This document shows, in pieces, positions 49,363-51,272 of a DNA stretch of 64,000 bases. The translations under genes and the position numbers were made by a program. The DNA comes from SAR202 cluster bacterium (GTDB taxonomy: Bacteria; Chloroflexota; Dehalococcoidia; Lucifugimonadales; VXLM01): NCBI GenBank assembly GCA_022448725.1, contig JAKUTR010000001.1:1-64000 (forward strand). Direction: 5' to 3'. The notes under the pieces were generated by a model. That model made no database searches and was not told the DNA's origin. It worked only from the letters and a program-made list of their open reading frames with translations. Numbering within the stretch: position 1 is the stretch's first letter; each line of letters begins with the position of its first letter.

Positions 49363-50520
49363 TTAGAGGGAGCGACTTACTTTGCCGCCGGCAGTAGTTA
49401 AGTCTAACGCTGAATGGCGATGCTGAATCGGTACTAGGCCAATATCCGCTGTAGTTACAATCGTTTGTTCATAGCCGGTTGCGCGTTCCAATACTTGTGA
49501 TCTGCGGGTGGTGTCTAGTTCGGAGAGGACATCATCGAGAAGGATGATCGGTTTACTACCTCGGACTTCCTGTAGATGCTGCGCTTCAGCAAGCTTTAAC
49601 GCTAGTATCACCGTCCGTGCTTGTCCCCGTGACGCGTAGTCATTAACACTAGTGTCACCCAGCAGTAGCATGAAATCGTCACGGTGGGGTCCGCGAAGAC
49701 ATACCCCTTGGGCAATCTCTTTAGACCTGACTACCTCCAACATTTTTCGTATTTCGTCTCCAATTTGTTGGGGTGATGAGCCAGTGCTAGGTATGCTCGC
49801 TTGGTACTTGACCATTAGGATTTCATCTACATTGCTTAGGTCTTTGTGTGTTTGAGTCGCTGTGTCTGAAAGTCGGGCCAATGTATTCGCGCGTCGAGTT
49901 AGAATAAGTGCTCCTGCATCTGCGAGTTGGTCGTCCCAGATGGTTAGTTCGGACTCTTTTGAGCGGCGATCCCGAATTTCTTTTAGTAAATGGTTTCGGT
50001 TAGTAACGATTCGTTGATACCTCTGCAGGGTTTTCAAATACTCACGATCTGTCTGAGAAATCAAAATGTCGAGATACCGCCTGCGAATGGTAGGTGATCC
50101 GTACACTAGATTAAGATCATCTGCAGTGAAAAGAACAGCGTTCATTTCACCGACAAGTTCGGAGCCCCGTCTACGAATACCATTAATATGGACGTATTTT
50201 TTGACTCTGAGATCATGATATTCGCTGCTTGGTGATGTCATCCAGCTAAAATCGACTTGTAGTTTGGTTGTATCACCTTCTCGATTTATCGAACCTGCGA
50301 TTTGTGCGAAGGACTCGTTTGTGATTGACTGGCGGCGAATCAGCTGCCGTTCTGTTGACGCACGATGGGACTTTGCTACAGCCAAGATATAAATTGCTTC
50401 TAGAAGGTTGCTCTTACCTTGGCCATTCGCACCTTGTACGAGAACCATGCCCGGCTCAAACTTGAGCTCTAGGTGTGGGTAGTTCCGAAAGTTTAGTAAC
50501 GAGAGATTACTAAGGTAAAT
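49363..50520 (-). CDS. recF: DNA replication/repair protein RecF, probable AUU start
   Basis: A SMC-like ATPase that loads RecA at gaps. Walker A is GANGQGKSNLLEA; the signature and Walker B are RGQARTVILALKLAEAQ and IILLDDVLSELD. The first ATG (50448) lies immediately before Walker A and would delete the first strand. In the same frame upstream, 24 codons encode IYLSNLSLLNFRNY and HLELKFEPG, a standard RecF N-terminus. The frame opens after TAG at 50524-50526 with two ATT codons. GGGAG is well placed (about 7 bases) for ATT at 50520. There is no ATG, GTG or TTG in that stretch, so the start is most likely AUU. Confidence 0.9.
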   Translation of the reverse strand: MYLSNLSLLNFRNYPHLELKFEPGMVLVQGANGQGKSNLLEAIYILAVAKSHRASTERQLIRRQSITNESFAQIAGSINREGDTTKLQVDFSWMTSPSSEYHDLRVKKYVHINGIRRRGSELVGEMNAVLFTADDLNLVYGSPTIRRRYLDILISQTDREYLKTLQRYQRIVTNRNHLLKEIRDRRSKESELTIWDDQLADAGALILTRRANTLARLSDTATQTHKDLSNVDEILMVKYQASIPSTGSSPQQIGDEIRKMLEVVRSKEIAQGVCLRGPHRDDFMLLLGDTSVNDYASRGQARTVILALKLAEAQHLQEVRGSKPIILLDDVLSELDTTRRSQVLERATGYEQTIVTTADIGLVPIQHRHSALDLTTAGGKVSRSL

Positions 50521-50591
50521 AATCTAACTCCCTAGAAAAGGATCTGTCTTGAAACTATTGCCTTAATGTTTATAAGGTGAATAGTACTCGT

Positions 50592-51272
50592 TCATAGACC
50601 TCGGCAAGCAGCATCCCGGATAGCTTTAATCGCCGATGCTACTCCGTCGACACTGGAATAAACCGCTGATCCTGCAACCAGCACTCTTGCTCCTGCCGTT
50701 ACTACATCTTCAGCATTATCCGGCCCAATGCCACCGTCGACTTCAAGTTTTGCGGTAAGCCCATTATCGTCGAGCATTCTTCTGACTTGCTCGATCTTGC
50801 CAATGGTATTAGGAATAAACGATTGGCCGCCAAAACCAGGATTCACACTCATAATCAACACTAGATCCAACTCAGGTAGTATGTCTTGCAACGTGGTTAC
50901 TGGAGTTGCTGGGCTTAGTGCTAGGCCCGCCAAAGTACCTGAGTCCTTGATTTGCTTAATCACCTGGTGCAGTTGATCAACCGCTTCTACATGAACCGTT
51001 ATTATGTCGGCTCCGGCTGCTGCGAGTTCATCTATGTAGTCTTCTGGACTGTCAACCATCATATGGACGTCAAATACTGCTTCTGTTGAGCCACGGACAG
51101 CCGCAATAATAGGTACACCAAACGTCAAGTTAGGGACGAAGTGACCGTCCATGACATCAAGGTGAATGTAATCTGCGCCACCTTCATCTGCTTCGGCGAT
51201 TTGGTCTCCAAGTCGAGCAAAGTCAGCTGCGAGTACCGACGGCGCTATCTCAATGTTTTGTGTGAGGTTCAC
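50592..51272 (-). CDS. rpe: Ribulose-phosphate 3-epimerase
   Basis: A 226-residue TIM-barrel enzyme interconverting ribulose 5-phosphate and xylulose 5-phosphate. Motifs include APSVLAADFARLGDQI, the metal-binding YIHLDVMDGHFVPN and VNPGFGGQSFIPN. The GTG start overlaps the argH stop by 4 bases (GTGA). It is the third gene of the run maoC-like, argH, rpe, recF. Confidence 0.97.
   Translation of the reverse strand: MNLTQNIEIAPSVLAADFARLGDQIAEADEGGADYIHLDVMDGHFVPNLTFGVPIIAAVRGSTEAVFDVHMMVDSPEDYIDELAAAGADIITVHVEAVDQLHQVIKQIKDSGTLAGLALSPATPVTTLQDILPELDLVLIMSVNPGFGGQSFIPNTIGKIEQVRRMLDDNGLTAKLEVDGGIGPDNAEDVVTAGARVLVAGSAVYSSVDGVASAIKAIRDAACRGL

Follow-up and report, generated by a model that had tools for sequence, protein, structure and literature searches.

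The recF gene of this SAR202 cluster bacterium, encoded in the window of 64,000 nucleotides that makes up the whole stretch analyzed here, appears to initiate at an AUU codon, which would add a new gene to those known to initiate at AUH codons. Throughout, ATH denotes ATA, ATC or ATT (H = A, C or T) and NTG the canonical-type starts. We regard it as probable that this AUU-started recF, placed by a Shine–Dalgarno (SD) motif, is kept low and responds to IF3. Where the start lies, how far it is conserved, how it associates with SD motifs and how specific it is to certain genes are read from sequence comparison, and the low output, the IF3 sensitivity and the purpose of the arrangement are what we infer.

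The recF coding sequence spans 49363..50520 on the minus strand (385 codons from the ATT at 50520, stop included in the range), and its frame is open from a TAG at 50524..50526 down to the stop at 49363. Read 5' to 3' on the minus strand, which also carries all features named below for this locus, the region around the start is ..ctaGGGAGttagattATTtaccttagt.., with the TAG followed by two tandem ATT codons (50523-50518) and by TAC CTT AGT AAT, and the TAG itself rules out any start farther upstream in frame. No ATG, GTG, TTG or CTG occurs in the recF frame between this TAG (50526-50524) and the first in-frame ATG, at 50446..50448. The second ATT, at 50518..50520, aligns with the recF starts of relatives from the order, the class and the phylum and would be decoded as fMet. 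The first one, at 50521..50523, lies 4 nt from the SD motif and one codon 5' of the aligned start, and both the alignment of homologues and the spacing make it the less likely start of the pair. An AUH codon at the homologue-aligned start, with no canonical in-frame alternative, is what characterizes AUH starts, and recF presents both features.

The predicted product is a full RecF from its first residues onward. It scores 308 bits against the NCBIfam profile TIGR00611 (cut-off 172) over profile positions 1-338, its N-terminal strand and Walker A motif show the spacing normal for RecF (LSLLNFRNY...GANGQGKSN), and the RecF chains 5z67 and 2o5v of the PDB align with it from residue 2. Compared with order relatives, codons 2-24 have an identity of 0.54, 0.72 and 0.33 at the first, second and third codon positions, and the DNA immediately before the start one of 0.25, 0.28 and 0.26. 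Since this codon-position pattern is absent upstream, the 23 codons following the ATT at 50520 are evidently coding, that is, sequence of the translated type, which the adjoining upstream DNA is not. These results largely bear out a first-pass annotation made from the window alone. Rereading the minus strand confirmed the lack of ATG, GTG, TTG and CTG before 50448 and found no NTG codon at all; the normal spacing claimed between GGGAG (50528..50532) and the ATT at 50520 measures 7 nt; and the profile and structure matches agree with a canonical RecF N-terminus encoded upstream of 50448. The described stretch between the TAG and that ATG exists as well, but it holds 25 codons with the tandem ATT rather than the 24 reported.

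We searched for recF in relatives from the order, the rest of the class and the phylum, and compared the 5' regions at the codon aligned with the ATT at 50520. This codon is ATG, GTG, TTG, ATA, ATC or ATT in 154 of 158 loci, in agreement with the earlier placement of the ATT at the family's initiating Met. Within the order (56 loci), ATC was found 16 times, ATT nine, ATA five, ATG 11, GTG nine, TTG three and other codons three, totaling 30 ATH and 23 ATG/GTG/TTG loci. In the rest of the class, ten of 77 loci carry ATH and 67 NTG; in the other classes of the phylum, none of 25 loci carries ATH, 24 being NTG and one another codon; and in other phyla, ATH was absent from the recF start of all 23 loci. 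All four genomes of the window's genus have ATT, ATC or ATA at this position. The first-pass annotation had proposed checking whether the ATT is conserved among relatives, and what is kept turned out to be the AUH class and not AUU itself. In most ATH loci of the order (26/30), a stop closes the frame and the 30 codons upstream contain no canonical codon; outside the order, only four of 11 class-level ATH loci (a Lake Baikal MAG counted) are as strict, and several have canonical codons upstream, so that the class-level ATH starts are less certain and these several ambiguous. That MAG (Dehalococcoidia, SHYL01000001.1) has a recF with ATT and GAGG upstream, and is the best named match, at 38% identity. 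With ATG, GTG or TTG at 23 of the 56 loci of the order, the weak start is evidently dispensable in some lineages. In one family of the class (f52; seven genomes: G070, G099, G117, G131, G143, G165 and G250), the search for RecF returned none, just weak P-loop matches. Overall, support for a recF start at AUU 50520 comes near the best that comparative sequence can give, and we hold this start to be highly probable.

The age of the ATH start was examined on a RecF tree computed without residue 1. The ATH label changes seven times on this tree, versus 23.8 times when shuffled, and none of 500 shuffles was as low. A clade of 20 order members from 14 families (SH-aLRT 98%) is uniformly ATH (20/20), with a third base that is C, T or A but never G, though AUG is one substitution away. 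Because the third base varies among these three and is never G, we suggest that the weak start is under selection in this clade. Its retention as AUC, AUU or AUA across at least 14 families of the order marks it as evidently old.

An SD motif, scored 4-11 nt upstream of the recF start, accompanies 38 of 41 ATH loci versus 43 of 114 NTG loci (Fisher p 3e-10, a value that is only indicative, the related sequences not being independent). Within the order, the corresponding proportions are 28/30 and 11/23 (p 3e-4), and spacings of 6 and 7 nt are the commonest among the recF loci. This association could merely offset the weak codon and by itself is no proof of regulation.

The search for other AUH-started genes covered 1.19 Mb of the window's genome, of which 1.12 Mb lie outside the window (the fetched part is ~57%), and, for comparison, 0.8 Mb from G036, a relative in the order. 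Ranking 5' extensions by coding potential was too weak alone in the window's genome, and homology was used instead. Among 247 ortholog pairs, the scoring used assigned a shared canonical start to 176 and no common call to 68. The other three scored better with ATH, namely infC, an oxidoreductase-like gene (C1:138327), for which the copy of the window's genome is ambiguous (ATA then GTG), and a gene at C1:157785, where the ATH call looks false. A separate homology screen flagged hflX and prfB. Within the limited power of the screening, AUH starts are rare and gene-specific, not genome-wide. Inspected by eye, and hence less securely than recF, infC has an ATA, ATC or ATT start at almost every one of 30 order loci (ATA at C1:172825 in the window's genome), so that the parallel with infC drawn at first reading is apt. 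The ribosome-splitting GTPase gene hflX (minus strand, C7 ~25073 in the window's genome) starts, again by eye, with one of the same three codons in ~26 of 30 order loci (L314-L343), usually with an SD motif. By eye, ATH starts of hflX also occur in many other class members, and they are likely in some cases in other classes. Additionally, rsfS, encoding the ribosome silencing factor, starts with ATC, preceded by an SD motif, in the genus of the window (loci L284-L287: the window's own genome, with the gene at L273:5892-6236 on the minus strand, and G001-G003), and with a canonical codon, often right after a TATAAT-like box, in most other order loci, all as judged by eye. A family 2 glycosyltransferase gene (C1:146267, L228:2267, plus strand) appears to start at an ATT that follows AAAGGAGG by six nt; a search for close orthologs returned none. 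The prfB-like gene flagged above (C15 ~25101, L276, plus strand) shows no canonical start near the homology start and a TTTGAC site, and by inspection it reads as an ordinary programmed +1 frameshift.

Mechanistically, we propose that fMet-tRNA initiates recF at the AUU at 50520, positioned and rescued by SD pairing at the GGGAG 7 nt upstream, and that mispairing of the third base at the start codon would yield a weak initiation that is open to rejection by IF3. RecF synthesis would then be low and would rise as IF3 activity per 30S subunit drops, as for infC, which together with hflX of the same genomes appears to share this weak start class with recF. Excess RecF is harmful in E. coli, which could be the reason for keeping it low. 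Given that the class of start codon is conserved, the weak start probably acts as an intrinsic brake on RecF synthesis, which may respond to IF3. Weak translation and a response to IF3 are suggested by analogy with infC and sigR: IF3 destabilizes 30S complexes at start codons other than AUG, GUG and UUG and represses non-canonical starts in E. coli and Streptomyces, among them the GTC start of sigR, and infC is described as autocontrolled via its AUU codon (PMC5472188, for infC through the work cited there). It is tentatively conceivable, if rather doubtful, that IF3 governs a small cross-process set of genes via conserved AUH starts in the order, comprising infC, the ribosome-splitting gene hflX and, for replication-fork repair, recF, joined by rsfS in the window's genus.

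The comparison with known systems sets out how far these analogies extend. The infC gene (AUU, AUC or AUA, under translational autocontrol) resembles recF in combining AUH with an SD motif, conserved over long distances and in the same genomes; however, infC controls its own regulator, whereas recF is a DNA-repair gene on which any IF3 control would be one-way, and the control of infC is experimental in E. coli (according to literature cited in PMC5472188) and that of recF is deduced. In E. coli pcnB, a nucleic-acid enzyme is held low by AUU (Binns and Masters 2002, as cited in PMC13009471), as may likewise be the case for RecF, although pcnB is a different gene from another phylum and its case, as cited there, is experimental. 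The sigR gene of Streptomyces (PMC5472188) shares with recF a lineage-conserved non-canonical start missed by gene finders, but its start is GTC and not AUH, it encodes a sigma factor, and its repression by IF3 is a property of sigR that was shown experimentally. Lastly, ccpN (AUA) and cvfC1 (AUU) of Staphylococcus aureus, where non-canonical starts are paired with strong SD motifs, likewise have a conserved AUH codon with a strong SD; these are other genes, with starts mapped by ribosome profiling and an AUH reporter output well under that of AUG (PMC13009471).

Three alternatives dispute the start itself. Translation could begin at the ATG at 50448, the first canonical codon and the one that an NTG-only gene finder would output, leaving the upstream codons untranslated or as a decayed N-terminus. 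Codons 2-24, however, are under coding constraint, the RecF structures contain the N-terminal stretch before that Met, and the column is ATG in only ten of 41 ATH loci, in which the first canonical codon ranges from codon 5 to 78. A start at 50448, which the first-pass annotation had also disfavored, therefore lacks comparative support and is very unlikely; coding constraint, alignment and structures led us to reject it. Entry through an out-of-frame upstream start followed by a programmed frameshift into recF is more improbable still, even though programmed frameshifting is apparently present, by inspection, at prfB in the window's genome: the SD motif is normally spaced to the ATT, visual inspection revealed no slippery site, and sister lineages have ATG, GTG or TTG at the aligned codon. 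The SD spacing and these canonical starts dismiss it. An error of sequencing or assembly concealing a true ATG might be suspected in a fragmented draft of 75 contigs, and the earlier annotation had named canonical codons in relatives as the sign of one. The relatives refute this reading, whose probability is next to nil, since ATH is found in the three other genomes of the genus (4/4 with the window's own) and in 26 further order loci (30/56 in all), including those of G036, a 2.7 Mb genome in a single contig, and of G013, in two contigs.

With the AUU at 50520 as the start, two further alternatives concern what it does. An altered IF3 or initiator tRNA could allow free AUH initiation in this lineage, making recF one of many such genes and unregulated, and AUH starts are indeed present in hflX, infC, the rsfS of the genus and perhaps two genes more. 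This is improbable, because, hflX aside, ATH in both genomes scored better for no more than infC and at most one or two others of the 247 pairs, as opposed to the 176 with a joint canonical start, and IF3 of the window's genome aligns full-length with ordinary bacterial IF3 of known structure. The AUU could, alternatively, be real and set a fixed low level without physiological variation of IF3, in the manner of pcnB, a known AUU gene whose translation the title of its paper describes as limited by the start codon (Binns and Masters 2002, as cited in PMC13009471). This is quite possible, although short of probable: IF3 is reported to repress non-canonical starts in both E. coli and Streptomyces (PMC5472188), and the AUH class that recF has in common with infC and hflX points to a shared input.

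Characterized examples of non-canonical starts are few, and most come from one species or genus; the recF case spans families of an order and concerns a widespread repair gene. Gene finders restricted to ATG, GTG and TTG would trim dozens of residues off many such RecF proteins, and with them the first strand, ahead of Walker A. Taken with infC and hflX, recF provides a testable case for IF3 regulating several genes; if this is true, the availability of IF3 would couple ribosome-subunit status to RecF-dependent repair. Members of SAR202 are reported to have been cultivated (PMC10444878). Our literature searches, with subscription journals mostly outside their range, found nothing linking recF to an AUU start and, by title and abstract on hflX and non-canonical starts, nothing on the start codon of recF or hflX.

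Several minor signals were noted around the recF start. In a predicted hairpin (window 50480-50600, minus strand; z -1.95), the start region with its tandem ATT is paired; as start-region RNA structure showed no trend across 39 ATH loci (mean z 0.06), it was left out of the case. Promoter scanning upstream of recF gave matches at or below chance level. A 10-codon ORF (ATG AAC GAG TAC TAT TCA CCT TAT AAA CAT TAA; ~50565-50600 of the window, minus strand) overlaps the rpe stop 5' of recF and is probably due to chance. Under strict scoring in the order and class, a -10 box lies just 5' of the recF start in ten of 90 NTG versus none of 40 ATH loci, a difference that, with regard to leaderless mRNA, is a lead only. 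In four class loci (L184, L186, L195 and L213), recF has TATAAT or TACAAT a few nt 5' of its GTG or ATG, which suggests leaderless recF mRNAs in these canonical-start relatives.
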